Part shown: positions 28,769-44,773 of the stretch, in pieces
How positions within the stretch are numbered: the stretch's first letter is position 1
Layout of the letters: each line of letters opens with the position of its first letter
Source: Candidatus Gemmiger excrementavium
GTDB taxonomy: Bacteria; Bacillota; Clostridia; Oscillospirales; Ruminococcaceae
Assembly (NCBI GenBank): GCA_019116485.1
Contig: DXBO01000016.1
Location: 1-62,707, forward strand
Direction: 5' to 3'
DNA length: 62,707 nt
Position numbers and translations under genes: made by a program
Notes under the pieces: model-generated
Databases searched by the model: none
Told to the model about the DNA's origin: nothing
The model's input: only the letters and a program-made list of their open reading frames with translations

Positions 28769-31423
28769 TCAATCCTCCTTTTCAATGGCACGGCAGGTGC
28801 CGCACAGGGCCGCGGTTGCCGTGCGCAGGCTTTGCCAGGTATCGGCATCCACCACACCCAGGGTTTGCAGGCCGGTGGTCAGCTGGTAATTCTCCAGGGC
28901 GTCCTGGGTAGCGGCATCCAGTTCACCGGTTTCCGGGACAAATTCGTAACCCTGGTCTACGGTTGCCAGAAGATTGAGCCAGCGCTGCACCTGCCGTACC
29001 GCCGGACCGGAGCTGCCCAGGGTCAGGGCTGCCGCGGGCCATACGCCTGCCGGTTCCGGTGCGGCGGCGGCCGGGTTTACCTCAGCCAGTGCCAGGGTTG
29101 CTTGACGGAACACCTGCCAGTCGGCGGTGGTCACACTGCCGGTCTCGGCCAGGCCAAAGTACCGCTGGGCACTGCGTACCGCTGTTTCCAGGGTGGCGCC
29201 GTAGGTGGAACTGGGGGCGGCATCGGTCAAAAAGTTGATCTCGGGCAGCCACAGGCTCATAAAGAGCAGTAGCCAGTTCAGCCGCAGTACATCGGGACCG
29301 CGGTCTCCGGGGCGCAGGGTCTGGTTGGGGGCGGGCAGCGTTACGGTGCGCACCACCGGGCCGCTGGTCTCCAGCTGGCGGGCCGCCGCGTACAGGCTCT
29401 GCCAGGTCAGGCGGCCTACTACGCCGTCCACTGTCAGCCCGGTGCGCTCCTGCCAGGCTTTCACGGCCCGGGTGGTAGCGCTGCCGAACACACCGTCCAC
29501 CGCCACAGCGGGAACATCACTGTAATAGGCTGAAAGCCGCCGCAGGTAGTACTGCACTGCCCGCACGGCGGTGCCGCTGCTGCCCTCCCGCACGGTGCCC
29601 GGAAACTGGCCCGGTGCCTCGTCCGGCTCCACAATTTTGTTGGTCACGGCCAGAGCAACCTCGTTGAGTTTGTTCCAGGTGGCACGGCCCACCACGCCGT
29701 CAGCGGTCAGGCCGAACCGGGTCTGGAACGCCGTCACAGCCCGGGTGGTGGCTGTACCGAATACGCCGTCCACCGTTACGGCAGACAATGTGCTGTAGTT
29801 GTCGGCGGCAAGCCGCAGCCAGAACTGTACCAGCCGTACCTCCATGCCGGTGTCGCCCTGGCGCAGCACGGTGCCGGGCCAGGCGGTGCCGCCCAGGTCG
29901 CTCTGCATATCCACCCAGGCGGCATACAGGGCGTCCCAGGTGGTCTGCCCCACAATGCCGTCGGCGGTCAGGCCCTGTTCCTGCTGGAATATTTTTACAG
30001 CACGCTCGGTAGAGGCACCGTACTTGCCGTCCACGGTCAGGTCGGGCAGGGAAGTGTTGAACTGGGCCAGTTCGGACAGCCAGAACTGCACCTGCTCCAC
30101 CGCGCTGCCCGTGGCGCCCCGCCGCAATACGGTGCCGGGCCAGGCTCCGGCGCTCTGGGTTCCGTCGGCAGCCTCCCCCTCGCTGGTCAATTCGGCCAGG
30201 TCCTTGACGCTGACGTAGATATAGCTGATCTTGTACCAGGTGGCTTTGCCCACCAGGCCGTCGGCGGTCAGGCTGAACTGCTGCTGGAATTTTTTGACAC
30301 AACTTTCTGTGGCGGCGTCAAAGGTGCCGGTGACTTCCGGCTTGCCGAAGGAGGGGTAATCTTTGGCGATACGGGACAGCTGCCGCTGGATGACCCGCAC
30401 AGCGGTGCCGGTGGAACCAAGTTTCAGGGTGACCCCCGGCCAGCTGGAAGGAATGGCCGCGATATTGCTGCTGGTGGCCAGCTGTACCCGGTCCCCGTAA
30501 TAATAGCGCAGAATCTGCAGGGCACTTTTGCCTTCGTTGGCTCGGTCCACGGTGCCCCACTGTTTCATGCCGGGGCAGGTGACCGTCTTGCCGTCGCAAT
30601 ACTCGGTGAAGTAGGGTTCCTGATCGCCGGAGCGCCGCACATAGGTATTGAACAGTTCGGCGGTCAGCCGTTCCATCACCGCAAACACCGTGCGCCCGGC
30701 CACATAGGCCTGGTCATATCCCGGCGAGCCGGTAATGTTGAAACTGTACCCCCGGCTGGGATACCATTCGGTCCAGACGCGGTTGAGCGCCAGGCTGATC
30801 TGAGCCAGGATATTGGCGCGCAGGGCTTCTTCCGGCCAGGTGGGATATACTTCACTGGAAGCTACGTTGGCAATATACTCCTGGAATCCTACCGTCACGT
30901 TGCTGACATTGGCCGAAGGTTTGTCCAGGTGCACCGTGATCTTTTTGGGGATTACCACTTCGCTCAGTACCCGGGGCTGCACTTCTTCCGGGGTGGGGCC
31001 GCTGCCGCCGCCCCCTACAAACAGGGGATGGGGCGGTATGGTCACCACCTCCACGTTCTGTTCGTCGCTGCGGGCGTCGGCCAGGGTGGGGCTTCCGGCT
31101 GTATCATCGGGCAAAAATTCCAGCCGGGCCACCGTCCGCTGACCGGCGAACACCTGCACGCCGTCCACGACCTGGGGCAGCCAGCCGTCTGCTTCGGCGG
31201 TCAGCCGATACACGGTGTAGGGGCGCACGGTACGGTTGTCCGGGTCCAGGCTGTAGGCGGGGTCCGGGGCCTCCAGGGCCAGCGGTGCGGTGGCACCCGC
31301 GTTGTCGGTGGTCAGCCGTGCCGCCGTGCCGCCTGCTTCATCCTGTACCAGGATGCGTACCCCGGCCAGCGGGGCGGCCTGGGCGGCCACCGACGCATAG
31401 ACGATCAATTCTCCGTTGGGCAT
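28769..31423 (-). CDS. SleC-like protein: SpoIID-type domain plus six peptidoglycan-binding repeats
   Basis: An 884-residue protein; ATG 31423 is preceded by AGGAGG. Residues 1-110 are a beta-sandwich (MPNGELIVYASV). Residues 180-315 are a compact SpoIID/LytB domain: EYIANVASSEVYPTWPEEAL with candidate catalytic Glu191, EYCDGKTVTCP (Cys276, Cys283), KQWG and ILRYYYG. This matches SleC spore-cortex lytic enzymes, which have one or two binding domains. Here about six PG_binding_1 repeats follow (from about 328 to 880), the last two degenerate. No signal peptide, as in SleC. A CATAGCCTG at 31442-31450 (minus) resembles a sporulation sigma-E/K -10, weakly. Confidence 0.8.
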   Translation of the reverse strand: MPNGELIVYASVAAQAAPLAGVRILVQDEAGGTAARLTTDNAGATAPLALEAPDPAYSLDPDNRTVRPYTVYRLTAEADGWLPQVVDGVQVFAGQRTVARLEFLPDDTAGSPTLADARSDEQNVEVVTIPPHPLFVGGGGSGPTPEEVQPRVLSEVVIPKKITVHLDKPSANVSNVTVGFQEYIANVASSEVYPTWPEEALRANILAQISLALNRVWTEWYPSRGYSFNITGSPGYDQAYVAGRTVFAVMERLTAELFNTYVRRSGDQEPYFTEYCDGKTVTCPGMKQWGTVDRANEGKSALQILRYYYGDRVQLATSSNIAAIPSSWPGVTLKLGSTGTAVRVIQRQLSRIAKDYPSFGKPEVTGTFDAATESCVKKFQQQFSLTADGLVGKATWYKISYIYVSVKDLAELTSEGEAADGTQSAGAWPGTVLRRGATGSAVEQVQFWLSELAQFNTSLPDLTVDGKYGASTERAVKIFQQEQGLTADGIVGQTTWDALYAAWVDMQSDLGGTAWPGTVLRQGDTGMEVRLVQFWLRLAADNYSTLSAVTVDGVFGTATTRAVTAFQTRFGLTADGVVGRATWNKLNEVALAVTNKIVEPDEAPGQFPGTVREGSSGTAVRAVQYYLRRLSAYYSDVPAVAVDGVFGSATTRAVKAWQERTGLTVDGVVGRLTWQSLYAAARQLETSGPVVRTVTLPAPNQTLRPGDRGPDVLRLNWLLLFMSLWLPEINFLTDAAPSSTYGATLETAVRSAQRYFGLAETGSVTTADWQVFRQATLALAEVNPAAAAPEPAGVWPAAALTLGSSGPAVRQVQRWLNLLATVDQGYEFVPETGELDAATQDALENYQLTTGLQTLGVVDADTWQSLRTATAALCGTCRAIEKED

Positions 31424-31481
31424 ACAAACACCTCCTGCCCACAGGCTATGCCGGGGCGGGGGATTCGGTGCGAAAGGGCGC

Positions 31482-31523
31482 AAAAAGGCCCGGGGCCGGT
31501 GGAAATTCCACCAGCCCCGGGCT
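31482..31523 (-). terminator. Terminator of the aldolase gene
   Basis: On the minus strand a long stem GCCCGGGGC ... GCCCCGGGC with inner GGTGG/CCACC, followed by five T residues. Confidence 0.9.
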
Positions 31524-31544
31524 GTGAGATTTGTTTGGGTAAAA

Positions 31545-32408
31545 TCAGGCCTTGTTGGCAGAGCCGAACAGCTCGATCTTCTCGCGCACGGTAGCCTTGA
31601 TGGCTTCGGCGCCGGGAGCCAGCAGCTTGCGGGGGTCAAAGCCCTTGCCCTGCAGGTCCTTACCGGCTTCGATATACTTGCGGGTGGCGTCGGCAAAGCT
31701 CAGCTGGCACTCGGTGTTCACGTTGATCTTGGACACGCCCAGGCTGATGGCCTTCTTGATCATCTCCTCGGGGATGCCGGTGCCGCCGTGCAGCACCAGA
31801 GGGATGTTGTTGGTAGCGCCGTGAATCTTGTCCAGTGCCTCAAAGTCCAGGCCCTTCCAGTTGGCGGGGTACTTGCCGTGGATGTTGCCGATGCCGGCGG
31901 CCAGGAAGTCGATGCCCAGCCCGGCGATCATGGCGCACTGCGCAGGATCGGCGATTTCGCCCATACCGACGACGCCGTCTTCCTCGCCGCCGATGGAGCC
32001 GACCTCGGCCTCGATGGACAGGCCGTGATCATGGGCCAGGGCGACCAGCTCGGTGGTCTTGGCCACGTTCTCGTCGATGTCGTAGTGGCTGCCGTCAAAC
32101 ATGATGGAGGTGAACCCGGCGGCGACACAGGCCTTGGCGCCTTCGTAGGTGCCGTGATCCAGGTGCAGGGCCACGGGCACCGTGATGCCCAGGCTCTCGT
32201 CCATGGCTTTGACCATGGCGGCCACGGTCTTGAAACCGGTCATATATTTGCCCGCGCCCTCAGACACGCCGAGGATGACGGGGGAATTGAGTTCCTGGGC
32301 GGTCAGCAGGACGCTCTTGGTCCACTCCAGGTTGTTGATGTTGAACTGGCCCACCGCGTAATGACCATCGCGCGCTTTGAGCAGCATATTGGTAGCATTT
32401 ACCAGCAT
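31545..32408 (-). CDS. fba: Class II fructose-1,6-bisphosphate aldolase
   Basis: A 287-residue zinc-dependent aldolase splitting fructose 1,6-bisphosphate to DHAP and glyceraldehyde 3-phosphate in glycolysis. The catalytic and zinc residues are visible in VALHLDHGT, SIEAEVGSIGGEEDG, GIGNIHGKYP and LVLHGGTGIPEEMI, with the phosphate site KINVNTE. ATG 32408 follows GGAGG. The size matches Bacillus FbaA; tagatose-bisphosphate aldolases of the same fold are an alternative, but single-gene context and strong expression signals favour fba. It is monocistronic with its own promoter and terminator. Confidence 0.93.
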   Translation of the reverse strand: MLVNATNMLLKARDGHYAVGQFNINNLEWTKSVLLTAQELNSPVILGVSEGAGKYMTGFKTVAAMVKAMDESLGITVPVALHLDHGTYEGAKACVAAGFTSIMFDGSHYDIDENVAKTTELVALAHDHGLSIEAEVGSIGGEEDGVVGMGEIADPAQCAMIAGLGIDFLAAGIGNIHGKYPANWKGLDFEALDKIHGATNNIPLVLHGGTGIPEEMIKKAISLGVSKINVNTECQLSFADATRKYIEAGKDLQGKGFDPRKLLAPGAEAIKATVREKIELFGSANKA

Positions 32409-32927: not shown

Positions 32928-32998
32928 GTAATCTGTATAATCAGCATTCGAAGCAGTAAAGATCATTGCAGGGGCAGACCCCTGACAGGAGGTACCCG

Positions 32999-33781
32999 AT
33001 GGAAAAGACCGGCCACGCACAGGCAGAGCAGCAAACCGATACGCTGGTATGGGGCAAAAACCCCGTGACTGAGTTGCTGAAAAGCGGTGACACGGTGGAT
33101 ACTGTCTATCTGGCCGATTCGCTGCCCCAGCCGGTGGCCGGATATTATACCGCCCTGGCCAAGCAGTGCGGCGCGGTGGTCAAACGGGTGCCCGGCCATA
33201 AATTGCAGAAACTCTGCGGCACGGCGGACCACCAGGGGGTGGCCGCCCGCGCCGCCCAGGTGCATTACGCCGCCCTGGAGGAACTGCTGGCCGCTGCGGA
33301 AGAAAAGGGCCAGGCGCCGTTCCTGGTTCTGTGCGACGGGGTGGAGGACCCCCACAACCTGGGGGCCATCATTCGTTCCGCCTATCTGTGCGGCGCCCAC
33401 GGGGTTGTTATCCCCAAGCGGGGCGGCGTGGGGGTCACCGGCACGGTCATGAAATCCAGTGCCGGAGCGGCGGCCCGTCTGCCGGTGGCCCGGGTGACAA
33501 ACCTGGCCCAGGCCATCCGCACCATCAAGGAACACAATGTTTTTGTCTATTGTGCAGACCTGGGCGGCGCGCCGCTGGCCCGCACCGATCTGTCCGGCCC
33601 GGTGGCGCTGGTGCTGGGCAGTGAGGGCGGCGGCCCCGGCGCCCTGACCCGCAAACTGTGCGATGCCGCCGTCACGCTGGAAATGGCGCCCGGCCAGGCC
33701 ACCGGGGTGGACAGCTACAATGTAAGCGTGGCTGCGGGTATTTTGTGCTACGACGTCCTGCGCCGCCGTATGGGAAAGTGA
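32999..33781 (+). CDS. rlmB: 23S rRNA 2'-O-methyltransferase, TrmH/RlmB (SpoU) family
   Basis: A 260-residue SPOUT methyltransferase that 2'-O-methylates a guanosine of 23S rRNA (G2251 in E. coli for RlmB). The N-terminal substrate-binding domain begins VWGKNPVTELLKSGDTVDTVYLAD. The knotted C-terminal half shows the three SpoU motifs: DGVEDPHNLGAIIRSA, LVLGSEGGGPGALTRK and SYNVSVAAGI. ATG 32999 follows AGGAGGT. It precedes the large pseudo-ATPase gene by 34 bases and is likely co-transcribed with it. TrmH-family specificity beyond 23S rRNA is possible. Confidence 0.93.
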   Translation: MEKTGHAQAEQQTDTLVWGKNPVTELLKSGDTVDTVYLADSLPQPVAGYYTALAKQCGAVVKRVPGHKLQKLCGTADHQGVAARAAQVHYAALEELLAAAEEKGQAPFLVLCDGVEDPHNLGAIIRSAYLCGAHGVVIPKRGGVGVTGTVMKSSAGAAARLPVARVTNLAQAIRTIKEHNVFVYCADLGGAPLARTDLSGPVALVLGSEGGGPGALTRKLCDAAVTLEMAPGQATGVDSYNVSVAAGILCYDVLRRRMGK

Positions 33782-33815
33782 ATTTCACCTTTAATTGTAA
33801 AGGGAGCAATCAGAC

Positions 33816-36800
33816 ATGCCAAGCAAACGTACCAACGATTCTGTAGACCGCATCCTGCAGGATCTGAATCAACAACAGACGGCGGCCGGTGTGCGGGATA
33901 CCGTGACGGACCATCAGGTGGACGAAATCCTGCGCAGCGTGGGCATTTCCACCACGCCGTCGCCGGTGGCTCCGACCCAGAGCAGTCCCATCGCGTTTTC
34001 CGGCCTGGGGAACTGGGATGACCGGGAAGCAGCGCCCGCCCCGGTTCAGCCGCGCCGCGCGCCGTCTCCGCGCCCTGCCGCACCTGCAGCCCCGGCGGTT
34101 CGTCAGGCGGCGCCCGCCGTGCAGCCCATGCCGGCCCGCCCGGCGGCCCCGGTGCAGCCGGTGGCCCCGGAACCGGCCACGCCGGAAAAGCCCGTCGATA
34201 CCGGCACACTGGGGGATACCACCCGTACCGGTATCATCAAGGGCTTTCTGCTCAAGATGTCCGCCGAAAACGGCGAAGCCAACACCGATGCCCTGAACCA
34301 GGGAAAAAATCAGTTCCAGAAATTTTTCCGGGATTCGGTGGCGGTGGTACCCGATGAAAAAGGAAAAATCCGGGAACCCGGCAAGAAAAAGCGGGGGTTG
34401 TTCGGCCTGAAATCCGCCGACGATACCGACCAGTTCGTGCCGATTCATGTGTCGCTGTCCGGCAATGCCCCGCAGGAACCGGCCACCGAGCTGCCCGAGG
34501 CGAGAACACCGGAACTGCAGGAGGAAGAATATTTCCCTGACAGGGAACCGGAAAAACCGGCCCAGGCCCCTAAAAAGCAGGGGTTTTGGGGCGGTCTGTT
34601 CGGCAGGGACTCTTTCAGTGAGGAAATCGTGATTCCCGAAGCCCGGCAAGAGGAACCCGCCGCCTGGCAGGAAAAGCAGCAGGTCCCGCAGCCTGCACAG
34701 CCGGTTGCCCGGCAGCAAGAGCAGCCCGCCGCCTGGCCGGAACCTCAGCCGGCGGCAAAGTCTGGGCGGGATGACGAGGAGGAAGCCGAGCCCGACACGG
34801 TTCAGAACGTATGGCACAGCAAATATACCCGCCCCGCGTCCGCCCCGCAGCCGGAGGGCGGCGACACCATGGAGATGCTGCGCCAGGTCAAACAGGCTGT
34901 ACGGCAGACTTCTGCTTCTACCGGCAACACCACTACGATCTACCGCAAAAAGCGCAATACCGTTGAATTTACCCCGGGCCAAAAGGTCCATACCCCGCCG
35001 CCGGCTCAGCCGGAATTCCGCGCGGGGGAACCGGTGGGGGAACCCATTGCCGTGCCGCAGCGCCGCAGCGCCGCCACAGGTTTTACCATGCAGCTGGGGG
35101 CACTGGATTCCGCCCCGCTGGACAGCACCCAGGATTTTATGAACGCCTATAACGCCGTGCGCCCCCGGCACACGGTGCAGGCTCCTGCTGTGCCCCAGCC
35201 GGTCCAGCAGCCCCAGGCGCCGCAGCCGGCAGAGACTGCACCCCGCCAGGCAGGCCGGGACCCCTATGCCGACACCCGGGCGATACCGGCATCCCAGGTA
35301 CCGGGCCGGGACCCTTATGCCGATACGCAGGTGGTGCGCCTGCCTGAAGAAGAAGAGAGCGTCTATGGCCGCCGGGAACCGGATGATGTGGATATGCTGG
35401 TGGATACCCTGACGGGTAAGATCCGTCTGACGCCCCAGGCGCCTGCCCACAGTGGCTTCACCCAGGACCTGGGCGCCGCCCCGGCGCCCGCCCACAGCGG
35501 GTTTACCCAGAATTTGGGAACTGCCCCGGCGCCTGCCCATAGCGGATTCACCCAGAATCTGGGCGCTGCCCCGGCGGCTTCCAGCGGCTTTACCCAGAAC
35601 CTGAACGGCACCGCTCCGGCGGAACCGGGCACCAAGTCCTTTGTACAGGATATTGCCCAGGCCATCAATACTGGTGCCATGGACGAAGATACCGCCGCCT
35701 ATGACGAGGCGGCCCAGCGTCTGACGGCTTCTCTGGAGGAGCAGGCGGCCAAAGACCCCCGCAGCCGCGTACGCCAGGCCCTGGGCAGTCTGCATCTGGG
35801 TGGCAAGGCTGCCGACGAGCAGGCCGACGGCCCCGCGCCCTTTGAAACCACCGAACTGCCCCCGGTACGCCGCCATGACTATGAGCGGGCCGAGGATGCG
35901 CCGGTGGTGCGCCGGGAATTGGCCAAACAGGTATTGAATCAGACTACCGCCGTGCTGGTTACGGGGGCCATTGCCGCCGTACTGCTGGTGCTGGGCCTGT
36001 TGGCCGCAGCGCTGCCTGCCCTGCCCGGGCCGTTGGCCGACATCACGGTATATCCTGCTGTGGTACTGGTGCTGCTGCTGGCGGCGGGGGGCGTGTGCTG
36101 GCGTACGGTGGCCGGCGGCGTGTTGGGCCTGTTTCAGCGCCCCACACCGGATAGTCTGGCGGTGCTGCCGCTGTTGGGGGCGGTACTTCAGTGCATTGTG
36201 CTGCTGGCCGCCAAGAGCTACAGCAATGAAGTCACCCTGCTGGCCGGCCCCGCCGTGCTGGTACTTTGTCTCAATGCTGTGGGCAAACGGATGAGCGCGG
36301 CTACTATGCAGGAAAACTTCCGCCTGGTCAGTGCCAAGGTGGAACACTCGGTGGCTTACCGGCTCAAGGATGCCGGAGCCCTGCGGGCCGTGACCAACGG
36401 CCTGGCCCAGCCGCATCCCAGCGTGCTGGTCAACCGACCCACCCAGATTTTCCGCAGCTTCCTGGCCAACAGCGAAGCACCGGCCACCAGCGACAAGAAC
36501 CAGCAGCAGTTTGCCTGGCTGACCGGCGCCTGTGCCTTGGCGGCCACGATCTTTGCGCTGATCAGCACCAAGAACGGCACCACTGCCGTTACGGTATTGG
36601 CCAGTGTGCTTTGCCTGGGCGCACCGCTGGCAGGTACGCTGCTGTCGGCTTTGCCCGCGCGGATGATGCAGCGCAGCGCCGCTCAGGTGGGGGCTGTCAT
36701 TCCCGGCTGGCGGGATATCCGCCAACTGGGCCGTATCAATGTGATCCAGGTTACGGCACGGGACCTGTTCCCCACAGGATGCGTCTCGCTGTCCGGCATC

Positions 36801-37583
36801 AAGCCGGTCAAACCGGAACACATCGACCTGGCCATTGTGTATGCGGCATCCATCCTGGCGGAAGCCGGGCCTACCCTGCGGGATGTGTTCCTGGGCATGC
36901 TGGGAGAAAACCGCAACCTGCTGGCCCAGGTGGATGACCGGGAGACTATCTACGGCAAGGGCTATGTGGGCTGGATCAACAAGCGCCGGGTGCTGGTGGG
37001 CAACCGTGCCCTGATGCAGGATTATGGTGTCAAAGTGCCCAGTATGGAGTATGAGCGCAGCCATACCGTCAACCAGCGGCGGGTCATCTACCTGGCCGTG
37101 TCCGGTAAGATGTTCGCCATGTTCCAGGTGGCTTACCAGCGCGACCCCGACACAGCGGTGGTGCTGGACAGCCTGCGCCGCAACGGTCTGTCCCTGGTGG
37201 TGGACTGCGACGACTTCAACTGTGATGTACAGCTGCTGGAAGCCGCCTACAGCCTGCCCGCCGGTGCCGTCAAGGTACTCAACGCCGCAGAGCGGGAAAC
37301 CCTGGCCCCGGCCGTGGCCTGGCTGCCCGAGAGTGAGGGCAACATGCTGCATCTGGGCAGCTTTGCCAGCTTTGTAGGGGGGCTGGAGGCCGCAGCCGGC
37401 GCTGCCGAAGGGGAACATAAATCCTCGGTGCTGGTGTCTGCGTCGGTGCTGTTCGGCTGCGTGCTGGGCGTGCTGCTGACCCTGACCGGCGGCCTGACCA
37501 CGCTGCCGCTGGTGGCCCTGGTGCTGTACCAGGCCGCCTGGTGTGTGCTGGCCCTGATCTTCCCGTTGATCCAGCGGTATTAA
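33816..37583 (+). CDS. Giant protein: disordered Pro/Ala-rich region fused to degenerate P-type ATPase
   Basis: A 1255-residue membrane protein. Residues 1 to about 700 are low complexity (Pro, Ala, Gln, Glu) with short conserved-looking islands (VDRILQDLNQQQ, TRTGIIKGFLLKMSAENGE) and four 15-residue repeats. From about 710 membrane helices begin. The C-terminal part follows P1-type ATPase order but has lost its catalysis. The CPC helix reads CLGAPLAG (933-940). The phosphorylation motif DKTGTLT is replaced by VTARDLF (979-985). The nucleotide-domain motif survives as YVGWINKRRVLVGN (to 1063). GDGxND is missing, replaced near VVDCDDFNCDVQLL. The end has two helices. Probably a non-pumping scaffold or sensor; function unknown. 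Confidence 0.75.
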   Translation: MPSKRTNDSVDRILQDLNQQQTAAGVRDTVTDHQVDEILRSVGISTTPSPVAPTQSSPIAFSGLGNWDDREAAPAPVQPRRAPSPRPAAPAAPAVRQAAPAVQPMPARPAAPVQPVAPEPATPEKPVDTGTLGDTTRTGIIKGFLLKMSAENGEANTDALNQGKNQFQKFFRDSVAVVPDEKGKIREPGKKKRGLFGLKSADDTDQFVPIHVSLSGNAPQEPATELPEARTPELQEEEYFPDREPEKPAQAPKKQGFWGGLFGRDSFSEEIVIPEARQEEPAAWQEKQQVPQPAQPVARQQEQPAAWPEPQPAAKSGRDDEEEAEPDTVQNVWHSKYTRPASAPQPEGGDTMEMLRQVKQAVRQTSASTGNTTTIYRKKRNTVEFTPGQKVHTPPPAQPEFRAGEPVGEPIAVPQRRSAATGFTMQLGALDSAPLDSTQDFMNAYNAVRPRHTVQAPAVPQPVQQPQAPQPAETAPRQAGRDPYADTRAIPASQVPGRDPYADTQVVRLPEEEESVYGRREPDDVDMLVDTLTGKIRLTPQAPAHSGFTQDLGAAPAPAHSGFTQNLGTAPAPAHSGFTQNLGAAPAASSGFTQNLNGTAPAEPGTKSFVQDIAQAINTGAMDEDTAAYDEAAQRLTASLEEQAAKDPRSRVRQALGSLHLGGKAADEQADGPAPFETTELPPVRRHDYERAEDAPVVRRELAKQVLNQTTAVLVTGAIAAVLLVLGLLAAALPALPGPLADITVYPAVVLVLLLAAGGVCWRTVAGGVLGLFQRPTPDSLAVLPLLGAVLQCIVLLAAKSYSNEVTLLAGPAVLVLCLNAVGKRMSAATMQENFRLVSAKVEHSVAYRLKDAGALRAVTNGLAQPHPSVLVNRPTQIFRSFLANSEAPATSDKNQQQFAWLTGACALAATIFALISTKNGTTAVTVLASVLCLGAPLAGTLLSALPARMMQRSAAQVGAVIPGWRDIRQLGRINVIQVTARDLFPTGCVSLSGIKPVKPEHIDLAIVYAASILAEAGPTLRDVFLGMLGENRNLLAQVDDRETIYGKGYVGWINKRRVLVGNRALMQDYGVKVPSMEYERSHTVNQRRVIYLAVSGKMFAMFQVAYQRDPDTAVVLDSLRRNGLSLVVDCDDFNCDVQLLEAAYSLPAGAVKVLNAAERETLAPAVAWLPESEGNMLHLGSFASFVGGLEAAAGAAEGEHKSSVLVSASVLFGCVLGVLLTLTGGLTTLPLVALVLYQAAWCVLALIFPLIQRY
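35445..35624 (+). repeat. Four tandem 45-bp coding repeats
   Basis: Each unit encodes AHSGFTQ(D/N)LGxAPAP; the fourth is degenerate (ASSGFTQNLNGTAPA). Units begin at 35445, 35490, 35535 and 35580. Synonymous differences between units show they are not a recent exact duplication. Confidence 0.85.
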
Positions 37584-37637
37584 GCGCCGCCGGGCCCGGG
37601 GGCAGAGGCCCTAAAAAACAGAAAGGTGGATTTGCCG

Positions 37638-38033
37638 GTGTACCGTACCCGCCAGAAACAGATGTCTCTGTACGACTACCTGCCGCCCTATCATGGGGAA
37701 CTCAGCGGCCGCAATCGCTGGCTGCTGCTGGCCGAGGCCATCGACTGGGACGGGTTTGAAAAAACCTACAGCGAGCTGTTCGCCCCAGGGGGCAAGGCGG
37801 CCATTCCGGCCCGCATCGCCCTGGGCTGCCGGGTGATCCAGCTGCACTACGGTGTGCCGGATCGGGAAGTGGTGGCTCTGGTGCGGGAAAGCCCTTACCT
37901 GCAATATTTTCTTGGGCTGGAAACCTTCAGCGACGAGATGCCGTTTTCGGCGCGCACCGTCGCCCGGTTCCGGGCCCGCATCCCCGACCGGGCCGTGCGC
38001 CCGGCGGTACGGCTGCTGCGCAGCTTTGAATAA
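37638..38033 (+). pseudogene. Truncated transposase (N-terminal DUF772-type domain only)
   Basis: About 131 codons match the N-terminal half of IS1182/IS5-type transposases: RQKQMSLYDYLPPY, AIDWDGFEKTYSELF, RIALGCRVIQLHYGVPDREVV, ESPYLQYFLGLETF and ARTVARFRARI. The DDE catalytic domain that should follow is absent; the frame stops at TAA 38033. Start is uncertain: GTG 37638 aligns with the usual N-terminus, TTG 37632 or GTG 37626 are possible. No terminal inverted repeats or target duplication were found. Either a remnant or a domesticated DNA-binding fragment. Confidence 0.75.
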
Positions 38034-38068: not shown

Positions 38069-38935
38069 ATGGAAATGTTTATCGACGCCCTGCTGGACGC
38101 ATGGATGGACAGCGTGAAAATGCTGCCCTTCCTGTATCTGGCCTATCTTCTGATCGAATGGCTGGAACGCCACCACGGGGAGCGCATCGAGCGGGCACTG
38201 GCCGGCGGCGGGCGCTGGGGTTTTGTACCCGGTGCACTGCTGGGCTGTGTGCCCCAGTGCGGATTCAGCGCGGTGGCCTCCAACCTGTATGCCAGCCGGG
38301 TCATCACCCCCGGCACGCTGCTGGCGGTGTTCATCGCCACCAGCGATGAAGCGGTTCCGCTGCTGGCAGCCGAACCGTCCCAGTGGCCCAGCCTGGTGGC
38401 CCTGCTGCTCTGCAAGGCTGCTTTCGGCATGGTGGGCGGTGTGCTGCTGGACATTCCGCTGCGCCATGTGCTGCCTGCCTCACTGTACGGCGGTTATGCC
38501 GGGCATGCTGACGAGGTGGACTGTCACGAAGAACACGAGGAACACAGCGGTATTTTCCTGGCAGCGTTGCGCCACACATTGGAAATTTTTGTGTTCATCC
38601 TGTTGTTCAGCCTGCTGATCGGGCTGGCTTTTTCCGCCGTTGGCGAGGAAGCTATCACCACCGCCCTGGCCGGCATGGGGTTGTTCCAGCCCATGCTGAC
38701 CGCCCTGGTAGGTCTGGTGCCCAACTGTGCCGCCAGTGTGCTGCTGGCCCAGCTGTACATCCAGGGCGCCATCTCTTTCGGCAGCCTGTTTGCGGGGCTT
38801 ACCGCAGGCGCCGGGGTGGGGCTGGCCGTGCTGTGGCGGGTCAACCCCAGCTGGAAGCAGAACCTCTTTATGACGGGACTGCTGTGGGCGGTAGGCGCGG
38901 CAGCCGGTATGCTGCTGCATCTGGCCGGGCTGTGA
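38069..38935 (+). CDS. Putative heavy-metal/manganese exporter (ArsP_2-like, 10 TM)
   Basis: A 288-residue polytopic protein of the family named putative manganese transporter or 10TM heavy-metal exporter. The two-fold symmetric signatures are GCVPQCGFSAVASNLYA in the first half and GLVPNCAASVLLAQLYI in the second, each with a cysteine in a membrane loop. ATSDEAVPLL and GLTAGAGVG are further conserved stretches. A cytosolic His/Glu-rich linker (DEVDCHEEHEEHSG, about 149-162) looks metal-binding. It lies between the pseudo-ATPase and the Mn-riboswitch ATPase, which fits metal handling. Substrate is unproven. Confidence 0.82.
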   Translation: MEMFIDALLDAWMDSVKMLPFLYLAYLLIEWLERHHGERIERALAGGGRWGFVPGALLGCVPQCGFSAVASNLYASRVITPGTLLAVFIATSDEAVPLLAAEPSQWPSLVALLLCKAAFGMVGGVLLDIPLRHVLPASLYGGYAGHADEVDCHEEHEEHSGIFLAALRHTLEIFVFILLFSLLIGLAFSAVGEEAITTALAGMGLFQPMLTALVGLVPNCAASVLLAQLYIQGAISFGSLFAGLTAGAGVGLAVLWRVNPSWKQNLFMTGLLWAVGAAAGMLLHLAGL

Positions 38936-42067: not shown

Positions 42068-42101
42068 ACAGGACGCAAACTGTCTGTGCATGAGTTTTTT
42101 T
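42061..42101 (+). terminator. Riboswitch expression-platform terminator
   Basis: CTCATGCACAG pairs perfectly with CTGTGCATGAG, followed by seven T residues. Its left arm overlaps the riboswitch P1 strand. Confidence 0.88.
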
Positions 42102-42127
42102 ATACCTGTTATGAAAGGAGCCGCGCC

Positions 42128-44773
42128 ATGAGACCGGACTATACCCAATCTGCGGAGGAACTGCTGCAAGGTCTGCAAACCACCGCCGACGGCCTGACCG
42201 AAACGGAGGCTGCCCGCCGGGTGCAGCAGTACGGCCCCAACAAGCTGAAAGACGCCCCCAAACCCACCTTTTTGCAGCGATTCCTGGGTCAGCTTCGGGA
42301 CCCCATGCTGCTGATCCTGCTGGCGGCAGCCGCAGTATCGGCCTTGACCAAGTACCTTTCCGGCGAAAGTTTTGCCGAGGTATGTATCATCCTGCTGGTG
42401 GTACTGCTCAACGCGCTGCTGGGCGTGGTGCAGGAAAGCAAGGCGGAAGCCGCCATTGAGGCGTTGCAGACCATGACCGCCGCTACCTGCAAGGTGCTGC
42501 GGGACGGGCAGCAGCGGGTGGTGCACAGTACCGAATTGGTGCCCGGCGATGTGGTGCTGCTGGAAGCGGGGGACAGTGTGCCCGCCGATGGCCGTTTGCT
42601 GGAAAGTGCCAGCCTCCAGATCGAGGAGGCAGCCCTGACCGGTGAAAGCGTGCCGGTCAAAAAAATTGCGGAAGCCCTGGGCCTGGGGGCCGGGCAGACC
42701 GCCGTGCCTTTGGGTGACCGCAAGAACATGTGTTATATGGGGTCCACGGTGGTGTATGGCCGTGGGCGTGCCGTAATCACCCACACCGGTATGGATACCG
42801 AGATGGGCCGCATCGCCGGGGCACTGGCCGATGCGGTGGACGATGCCACCCCTTTGCAGAAGCGGCTCACCGAACTGGGGCATACCCTGTCCAAACTGGT
42901 GCTGGGCATCTGTGTGTTCATCTTTGTATTTGACCTGGTAGCTGCGGGGGCTTTCACACTGGACGCGGTGCTGTCCACCTTTATGGTGGCGGTGTCCCTG
43001 GCAGTGGCAGCCATCCCGGAAGGTCTGGCTACGGTGGTCACTGTGGTTCTGTCCATCGGTGTTACCAACATGAGCCGCCGCAATGCGGTGATCCGCCGCC
43101 TGACCGCCGTGGAGACCCTGGGCTGTACCCAGGTGATCTGCAGTGACAAGACCGGCACTTTGACCCAGAACAAAATGACGGTGGTGGAACACACCGGTGA
43201 TACCGCCGCCCTGGCTGCCGCCATGGCCCTGTGCAGCGACGCGGTTCTGGGGGCGGACGGTCAGGCCCAGGGGGAGCCCACCGAAGCTGCCTTGGTGAAT
43301 TTTGCCGCGGCGGAAAACCTGCCCAAGGATCGGTTGGCTGCCAAACAGCCACGGGTGGACGAGGCGCCCTTTGATTCGGGCCGCAAAATGATGTCTACCG
43401 TCCACAAGGTGGGGGATGCTTTTGTGCAGTATACCAAGGGCGCCCCGGATGAAATTCTCCAGCGGTGCACTTCGGTGCTGGAACAAGGCCGGAAAGTGCC
43501 GCTGACCGAGGAAAAACGGGCGGACATTCTGTCCAGGAACAAACAGATGGCCGACCAGGCCCTGCGGGTGTTGGCCGCTGCCCGGCGGGACTGGCCCCGA
43601 CGCCCTGAGCGCAACGACCCGGCTTTTCTGGAACAGGACCTGTGCTTTCTGGGGCTGGCCGGCATGATCGACCCGGTCCGGCCTGAGGTGGGCCCGGCCA
43701 TTGACCGCTGCCGGTCAGCAGGCATTCGTCCGGTCATGATTACCGGCGACCACAAGGACACCGCCGTGGCCATTGCCAAAAGCCTGCACATCCTGGAGGA
43801 TGCCTCTCAGGCCGTCACCGGTGCCGAACTGGACGCCATTCCCGACGACCAGCTGGGCGAGGCGGTGCGCCGTTACAGCGTTTACGCCCGGGTACAGCCG
43901 GAACACAAGGTGCGTATCGTTAATGCCTGGCGGCACAACGGCGCGGTCACGGCAATGACCGGCGACGGCGTGAACGACGCCCCCTCCCTCAAGGCTGCCG
44001 ACATCGGGGTGGGCATGGGGGTTACCGGCACCGACGTGACCAAAAACGTAGCCGATATGGTGCTGGCCGACGACAACTTTGCCACCATTGTGGGTGCTGT
44101 GGAGGAAGGCCGCCGTATCTACGACAACATCCGCAAATCCATCCAGTTCCTGCTGGCCTCCAACATGAGCGAGGTACTGGGGGTCTTCGGGGCCACGCTG
44201 CTGGGGTTCACACTGCTCAACCCGGTGCATCTGCTCTTCATCAACCTCATCACCGACTGTTTCCCGGCGTTGGCCCTGGGCCTGGAACCGGGGGAGCCGG
44301 ATACCATGTCCCGCCCGCCCCGAAACCCCAAGGACGGAATCTTTGCGGGTGGCCTGGGGGTGGATATCCTTTACCAGGGGGTACTCATCACGGGCATTAC
44401 CATTGCCTCCTACCTGCTGGGCCATTACTTTGAAGCCGGTGTGTGGGAGATTCCCTCCGGCACAAGCCCCGAGGGGATGACCATGGCCTTTTTGACCATG
44501 AGCATGTGCGAGGTATTCCACAGCTTCAACATGCGCAGCCAGCGCAAGAGTGTTTTTTCGCTGCACACCCACAACAAGGTGCTGTGGGGGGCCATGCTGG
44601 GCAGTCTGGTGCTGACGGCGCTGGTGCTGGAAGTGCCGTTTCTGGCCTCGGCTTTCGGCTTTACGCCGGTGGGGCCCTTTGAATATCTGCTGGCCGTGGC
44701 GCTGGCGGTGCTGGTCATCCCCGTGGTGGAGGGGGTCAAGTGGCTGCAGCGCCGTGCCGCCCGCAAAGTCTGA
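42128..44773 (+). CDS. P-type cation-transporting ATPase (PMR1/SERCA-like), probable Mn2+/Ca2+ exporter
   Basis: An 881-residue P2-type ATPase. ATG 42128 follows AAAGGAG. The actuator motif TGES is at 171-174, the phosphorylated Asp340 lies in CSDKTGTLTQNKM, KGAPD marks the nucleotide domain, and TGDGVNDAPSLKAADIG (about 611) is the hinge. The N-terminal cation-ATPase domain (YTQSAEELLQGLQT) and C-terminal six-helix domain (LITDCFPALALGLEPGEPDTM) are complete. Control by a yybP-ykoY riboswitch argues for Mn2+ export, as for other riboswitch-linked P-type ATPases; calcium is an alternative. Confidence 0.92.
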   Translation: MRPDYTQSAEELLQGLQTTADGLTETEAARRVQQYGPNKLKDAPKPTFLQRFLGQLRDPMLLILLAAAAVSALTKYLSGESFAEVCIILLVVLLNALLGVVQESKAEAAIEALQTMTAATCKVLRDGQQRVVHSTELVPGDVVLLEAGDSVPADGRLLESASLQIEEAALTGESVPVKKIAEALGLGAGQTAVPLGDRKNMCYMGSTVVYGRGRAVITHTGMDTEMGRIAGALADAVDDATPLQKRLTELGHTLSKLVLGICVFIFVFDLVAAGAFTLDAVLSTFMVAVSLAVAAIPEGLATVVTVVLSIGVTNMSRRNAVIRRLTAVETLGCTQVICSDKTGTLTQNKMTVVEHTGDTAALAAAMALCSDAVLGADGQAQGEPTEAALVNFAAAENLPKDRLAAKQPRVDEAPFDSGRKMMSTVHKVGDAFVQYTKGAPDEILQRCTSVLEQGRKVPLTEEKRADILSRNKQMADQALRVLAAARRDWPRRPERNDPAFLEQDLCFLGLAGMIDPVRPEVGPAIDRCRSAGIRPVMITGDHKDTAVAIAKSLHILEDASQAVTGAELDAIPDDQLGEAVRRYSVYARVQPEHKVRIVNAWRHNGAVTAMTGDGVNDAPSLKAADIGVGMGVTGTDVTKNVADMVLADDNFATIVGAVEEGRRIYDNIRKSIQFLLASNMSEVLGVFGATLLGFTLLNPVHLLFINLITDCFPALALGLEPGEPDTMSRPPRNPKDGIFAGGLGVDILYQGVLITGITIASYLLGHYFEAGVWEIPSGTSPEGMTMAFLTMSMCEVFHSFNMRSQRKSVFSLHTHNKVLWGAMLGSLVLTALVLEVPFLASAFGFTPVGPFEYLLAVALAVLVIPVVEGVKWLQRRAARKV

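Follow-up and report, generated by a model that had tools for sequence, protein, structure and literature searches.

What is a protein that keeps the architecture of a P-type ATPase, an enzyme class defined by its phosphorylated aspartate, while having lost the motifs of the pump? The question is raised by a 62,707-nucleotide stretch of Candidatus Gemmiger excrementavium (contig DXBO01000016.1, assembly GCA_019116485.1; hereafter the window), in which an intact open frame of 1255 residues lies on the forward strand at 33816-37583, after rlmB. An initial annotation, made from the sequence alone, described its product as a catalytically dead P-type ATPase fused to a disordered arm; the open frame, its length and the positions of two degenerate motifs, VTARDLF (beginning at residue 979) and GAPL (at 935), were as it had claimed. 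Searched at full length, the protein has no significant match in Pfam and its NCBIfam hits, to heavy-metal P-type ATPases, are all weak and far under the cut-offs. No model of either database names the family. A phmmer search returned the copper ATPase 3rfu (E 3.5e-8), which we take to be the Legionella enzyme. The analysis below identifies the protein as a member of a new pseudo-enzyme branch of a known fold, specific to one order, which we take to be the Oscillospirales of GTDB.

The last 570 residues of the protein form a membrane core. Its AlphaFold2 model, based on 36 sequences, reached a predicted local distance difference test (pLDDT) score of 90.1 and a predicted template modelling (pTM) score of 0.82, and in a Foldseek comparison of this model with the PDB the entries at ranks 1-13 were all P1B ATPases (4bbj, E 1.1e-17), at 11-15% identity. 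Alignment of the core profile with a profile of 18 intact P1B ATPases using hhalign covered core positions 2-548 with an E value of 4.3e-32, which stems from one pairwise profile comparison with no database size behind it. The membrane pairs, the soluble loop with VLVGN and the final two helices are arranged in P1B order, and the eight-helix bundle, the P and N domains and the GxG and GN loops are all present. The core thus shares helix order, P domain and N domain with P1B-type (CopA-like) heavy-metal ATPases, and of 33 aligned family members, 32 are hit by the CopA and TIGR01525 models of NCBIfam. It differs from them in scoring 31.9 bits where the TIGR01525 model has its cut-off at 346.25, in lacking DKTGT, CPC, TGE, SEHP and GDGxND, in its stub of an A domain and, in most lineages, in carrying a long arm. 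On the evidence of profile alignment and predicted structure, the core is homologous over its length to P1B (copper-type) ATPases. Model, Foldseek ranking and profile alignment bear out the order of parts and the loss of catalytic motifs proposed by the initial annotation, and the absence of a P-type fold, which it had named as a refutation, was not what the structural comparison returned.

Motif counts refer to A1, a 33-row alignment and profile of pseudo-ATPase cores, and to the cores of 37 loci across the order (36 loci from 20 families, all carrying the pseudo-ATPase, plus the window), 13 of which are also in A1; the 24 deeper locus cores outside A1 bring the total to 57 rows. DKTGT, TGE[SP], GDGxxD and CPC occur in none of the 33 A1 rows and none of the 37 locus cores, and SEHP and GDGxND in none of the A1 rows. 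An active P1B pump would be recognised by the Asp of DKTGT, by TGE in the A domain, by CPC or SPC in M4 and by GDGxND with SEHP; none of these was found. The actuator (A) domain spans 60 residues in the profile alignment, compared with 124 in an intact relative (L081), and the AlphaFold2 model leaves a stub of 52 residues between two helices. The motif losses listed by the initial annotation were confirmed, but its list was incomplete: SEHP, TGE and the greater part of the A domain have gone as well. The column of the phosphorylated Asp holds Asp in 17 A1 rows, Thr in eight and other residues in eight, and all ten rows from the genus of the window are without the Asp. As judged from these columns, losing precisely the Asp is a genus-level trait, while no A1 row retains the remainder of DKTGT (its third residue, taken alone, is Thr in three). 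The homologue check proposed at the outset found no relative with DKTGT, so that the second refutation named there also failed; the Asp itself persists in part of the family. LFPxG was rejected as an order-wide signature: its L, F and P are present in 30, 32 and 31 of the 33 nearer rows, but F in only 20 and P in 16 of the 24 deeper ones. One genus member (L015/L116) does contain the string DKTGT, but within the arm, around residue 119, where it is a chance occurrence.

Alignment and model together indicate that the phosphorylation, metal-binding and dephosphorylation machinery is lost, while the membrane bundle, the head made of P and N domains and part of the nucleotide pocket are kept. G1049 is present in 33/33 A1 and 23/24 deeper rows (56/57 in total), G1062 in 33/33 and 24/24 (57/57), and D1133 is invariant in all 57. 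The first Gly of the GxG contact pair, G1047, is found in 21/33 and 13/24 rows, respectively. For the matching contact residues of ATP7B, G1099, G1101, G1149 and N1150, nuclear magnetic resonance (NMR) signals with ATP have been reported (PMC3203118). Because glycines of the pocket are kept, but its first Gly, Asn and Arg only partly so, part of the nucleotide pocket remains and not all of it.

The family was surveyed at four taxonomic depths, and coverage refers throughout to the matches listed. Among 35 Gemmiger genomes (NCBI family Oscillospiraceae), 33 have a match, some truncated by contig ends, including 19 of 19 good assemblies. Across the order, 196 of 197 genomes show some match to the A1 profile, and 184 of the 197 (150 of 155 good assemblies) outscore the best match outside the order. 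In a class-level sample, the full-length protein was found in 12 of 12 genomes of the same order, whereas the best match among 279 Clostridia of other orders (E 7.6e-38) was partial, reaching only across model positions 206-484, which is what ordinary P1B pumps would give. In the phylum sample, both genomes of the order were positive; among the 197 others, four of which overlap the class sample, the top match reached E 7.6e-34. Against five close relatives, the ratio of non-synonymous to synonymous substitution rates (dN/dS) was 0.10-0.17 for the core and 0.20-0.24 for the arm, where dS exceeds 1. These values place the core under purifying selection, and the conservation across the order exceeds what chance would give. 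With selection acting on it and its catalytic residues lost, the protein is, in sequence terms, a conserved and catalytically dead pseudo-ATPase.

In each of the 37 loci, the pseudo-ATPase gene is immediately preceded by a co-oriented RlmB-like frame (tblastn E 5e-39 or better), tblastn having settled seven loci in which opposite-strand shadow open reading frames had been called over rlmB. The two genes are separated by a median of 21 nt, with values between -4 and 182 nt in 35 of the 37 loci; the other two values (L143 and L153) are artefacts that arise from where a start or stop was set. Likewise, rlmB is upstream in all 30 named loci that have upstream DNA, out of 35 named loci, which overlap the genus genomes of the Gemmiger survey. 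Next in frequency is a neighbour that by eye resembles elongation factor G, at only 8 of the 37. Thus, rlmB is the constant neighbour, while the others vary; the initial annotation had the position after rlmB right, albeit as a passing mention of what proved to be a constant feature. The 34-nt gap of the window contains a good ribosome-binding site, no promoter- or terminator-like site was found in it on the forward strand, and from the adjacency we infer that the two genes are, in all likelihood, on one message. Other Clostridia also have rlmB, but there the frame that follows it has DGYN-x-N-x-W (YacP/NYN-like by eye) in 9 of 29 loci and is sigma-H-like by eye in about 8 of 29; the genomes of these loci are all without a full-length pseudo-ATPase. 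Searching the 1.5 kb 3' of rlmB with the pseudo-ATPase hidden Markov model (HMM) is a weak control, as long arms can displace the core beyond this range, and the class-sample search is the better one.

The remaining 685 residues form the N-terminal arm, slightly shorter than the 700 first proposed, although its Pro/Ala-rich and probably disordered character stands: hydrophobic residues make up 19% of the arm and 37.5% of the remaining protein, and Ala and Pro contribute 13.7% and 12.3%. Arm length ranges from 1 to 888 residues over the 37 loci. Of 31 non-redundant arms (the set that remained after removal of four near-duplicates and of arms under 60 residues), 19 have a short N-terminal motif; in 1000 shuffles, the mean was 0.06 and the maximum 2, a surprise that is overstated because the pattern was picked after viewing the arms. 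The conserved-looking islands mentioned in the initial annotation are shared inside the genus, but only this motif is common to several families. It was rejected as a general docking tag: in 59 genomes of the order, the DNA pattern occurred 31 times and its reversed control 15 times; of 30 matches with loci, 8 belong to the pseudo-ATPase family and the rest look unrelated, and a looser pattern in five genomes matched mostly unrelated proteins. An ABC-2 type permease in genome G142 (L194:229-1539, reverse strand) starts with the motif (FSIDDILAEI) and a disordered-looking arm, like the pseudo-ATPases of its relatives; a docking tag common to this permease and the pseudo-ATPase is possible. Two loci of family f10, L141 and L145, consist of the armless core only, with rlmB still upstream.

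Table 1. Features of the pseudo-ATPase gene and of the rlmB gene before it, in window coordinates.
Feature	Positions	Strand	Basis
rlmB, 23S rRNA (guanosine-2251-2'-O)-methyltransferase	32966..33781	+	TIGR00186 above cut-off; SpoU domains
34-nt gap between rlmB and pseudo-ATPase gene, Shine-Dalgarno-like AAAGGGAG	33782..33815	+	sequence scan
Whole gene, order-specific P1B pseudo-ATPase, 1255 amino acids	33816..37583	+	open frame; homologues in 33/35 genus genomes
N-terminal arm, residues 1-685, Pro/Ala-rich, few hydrophobics, probably disordered	33816..35870	+	composition, length survey, dN/dS
N-terminal motif SVDRILQDL, residues 9-17	33840..33866	+	pattern hydrophobic-[DE]-x-I-[LI]-x-[DE]-hydrophobic
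45-base tandem repeat in arm, unit APAHSGFTQNLG...	35431..35603	+	Tandem Repeats Finder
Membrane core, residues 686-1255, P1B fold	35871..37580	+	AlphaFold2, Foldseek, hhalign
A-domain stub, residues 839-890, no TGE	36330..36485	+	model helices 125-153 and 206-233 of the core; alignment
A936-P937-L938 replacing metal-binding CPC	36621..36629	+	profile alignment; CPC in 0/33 rows
T980 replacing phosphorylated Asp, then A-R-D, then substitute LFP (984-986)	36753..36773	+	profile alignment, column counts
Retained N-domain nucleotide-contact motifs G1047-K-G1049 and G1062-N1063-R1064	36954..37007	+	column counts
D1133, opposite the Asp of the TGD motif	37212..37214	+	33/33 A1 rows, 24/24 deeper rows

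Several other genes surround the pair in the window. Directly 3' of the pseudo-ATPase gene is a cut-down IS5/IS1182-type transposase frame of 135 amino acids (37626-38033, forward strand), and near it an arsenic-efflux or ArsP_2-type membrane protein (38069-38935, forward strand); a neighbour of this type also adjoins the pseudo-ATPase in L163 and, assigned to the same cluster, in L137. On the reverse strand, 28769-31696 encodes a 975-residue protein with six PG_binding_1 repeats and weak SpoIID similarity. Further downstream on the forward strand, 42086-44773 encodes an intact P2 ATPase of the Ca2+ type; it has both DKTGTLT and GDGVND and is not related to the pseudo-ATPase.

The family, its pairing with rlmB and the loss of the pumping motifs are established, and the protein is probably a membrane platform instead of a pump. 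The function that we infer, at about even confidence, is that of an order-specific P1B pseudo-ATPase, co-expressed with RlmB, which acts as a nucleotide-responsive membrane scaffold. The eight helices would anchor it in the membrane; the head would bind adenine nucleotide without hydrolysing it, and its shape would shift with nucleotide state; in most lineages, the flexible arm with its terminal short amphipathic motif would extend into the cytoplasm and hold a client; and the pairing with rlmB would couple the dose of the scaffold to ribosome production. A scaffold or regulator accordingly stays the best of the guesses offered by the initial annotation. We regard as a rather unlikely, speculative extension the idea that, throughout the order, a copper pump has been converted into the permanent partner of an rRNA-methylating enzyme, that is, a membrane-anchored, nucleotide-sensing hub tying ribosome production or docking to the membrane, with clients held by the flexible arm.

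A number of observations weigh against the scaffold reading. The Foldseek TM scores by query are modest (0.47-0.62 at ranks 1-13), with root-mean-square deviations of 10-13 A. Nucleotide binding by the head is putative, and several nucleotide-contact residues are lost: SEHP is gone in all 33 A1 rows, N1063 is kept in only 20/33 A1 and 10/24 deeper rows, and R1064 in 30/33 but only 8/24. The client of the arm is hypothetical, the motif is absent from 12 of 31 arms, and family f10 (14 genomes in the sample, 13 of them in the order-wide match list) has no arm, with frames of 541-564 amino acids; given the armless f10 and the incomplete motif, the arm cannot be a universal or core function. Finally, 13 of 197 genomes of the order lack a strong match, and five of these are good assemblies.

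We rank the alternatives in the order contact with RlmB or the ribosome, coupling-free channel, rebuilt HAD enzyme and metal sensor. The first, that the protein works with RlmB or the ribosome, as partner or regulator, by tethering RlmB, or ribosomes that are idle or still maturing, to the membrane, draws on rlmB being the sole constant neighbour and on the 18 genomes with no, weak or cut pseudo-ATPase match, of which 13 are also without RlmB above the cut-off. The other five have RlmB; three of them show the start of the pseudo-ATPase behind rlmB, and in the remaining two the contigs end within 419 and 223 nt. However, because the two genes touch, one assembly gap could account for both being absent. 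Moreover, adjacency is no proof of contact, RlmB is above the cut-off in 56 of 60 class-sample genomes, those of other orders being without a full-length pseudo-ATPase, and a Pfam search found no positively charged or RNA-binding domain in the arm. We consider this explanation unlikely.

A non-canonical transporter or channel, in which the membrane bundle alone carries a substrate without an Asp phosphoenzyme, would fit the retained eight-helix bundle, the Pro of M4 (27/33 A1 and 19/24 deeper rows) and W1242 of the final helix (29/33 and 24/24), but the membrane part has no conserved ligand, whether charged or Cys, His or Met, and the coupling machinery is gone, which makes it doubtful. Similarly, the invariant D1133, a second acidic pattern in the deeper rows (Asp in the Lys column in 19/24 and in the Gly column in 17/24) and the recognition of only 1 of 33 A1 rows by the Pfam HAD model could be taken to indicate a catalytic HAD-type enzyme, a phosphatase or autokinase with its site rebuilt from D1133 and a DxDxF loop. 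The Asp of motif I is nevertheless missing in 16 of 33 rows, and the GDGxND metal site in all of them, and we hold such an enzyme to be quite improbable.

The P1B ancestry would also suit a metal sensor or a regulator of a nearby true pump, both raised by the initial annotation, which had pointed to the intact ATPase 5 kb downstream. Both are very unlikely: a Pfam search found no HMA domain in the protein, and no Cys, His or Met column of A1 exceeds 26 of 33 rows (the best are Met1102, 26; Met1067, 24; and Cys933, 20). The pump at 42086, being of the Ca2+ type and not a conserved neighbour, is rejected as the regulated partner. A pseudogene, frameshift product or misassembly, although every classical motif is lost, is ruled out by the intact frames across the genus, the order-wide conservation and the low dN/dS of the core.

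The nearest published parallel that we found is the degenerated P4-ATPase domain of the malaria guanylate cyclase PfGC-beta (PMC6592433). As in that apicomplexan enzyme, a P-type ATPase domain has been retained within a larger protein minus most of its signature residues; PfGC-beta, however, is eukaryotic, of P4 type and fused to cyclase domains, whereas the pseudo-ATPase described here is bacterial, of P1B type and stand-alone. The consulted sections of a 2023 review of P-type ATPases (PMC10654040) mention no such bacterial family, nor was a description of it among the papers listed by searches restricted to open-access literature. An annotation naming this protein a copper ATPase would need correcting. 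A stand-alone bacterial family has retained the P-type scaffold and dropped its chemistry, the majority of the genomes sampled from a major gut order carry it, and it stays next to rlmB while the surrounding genes change.

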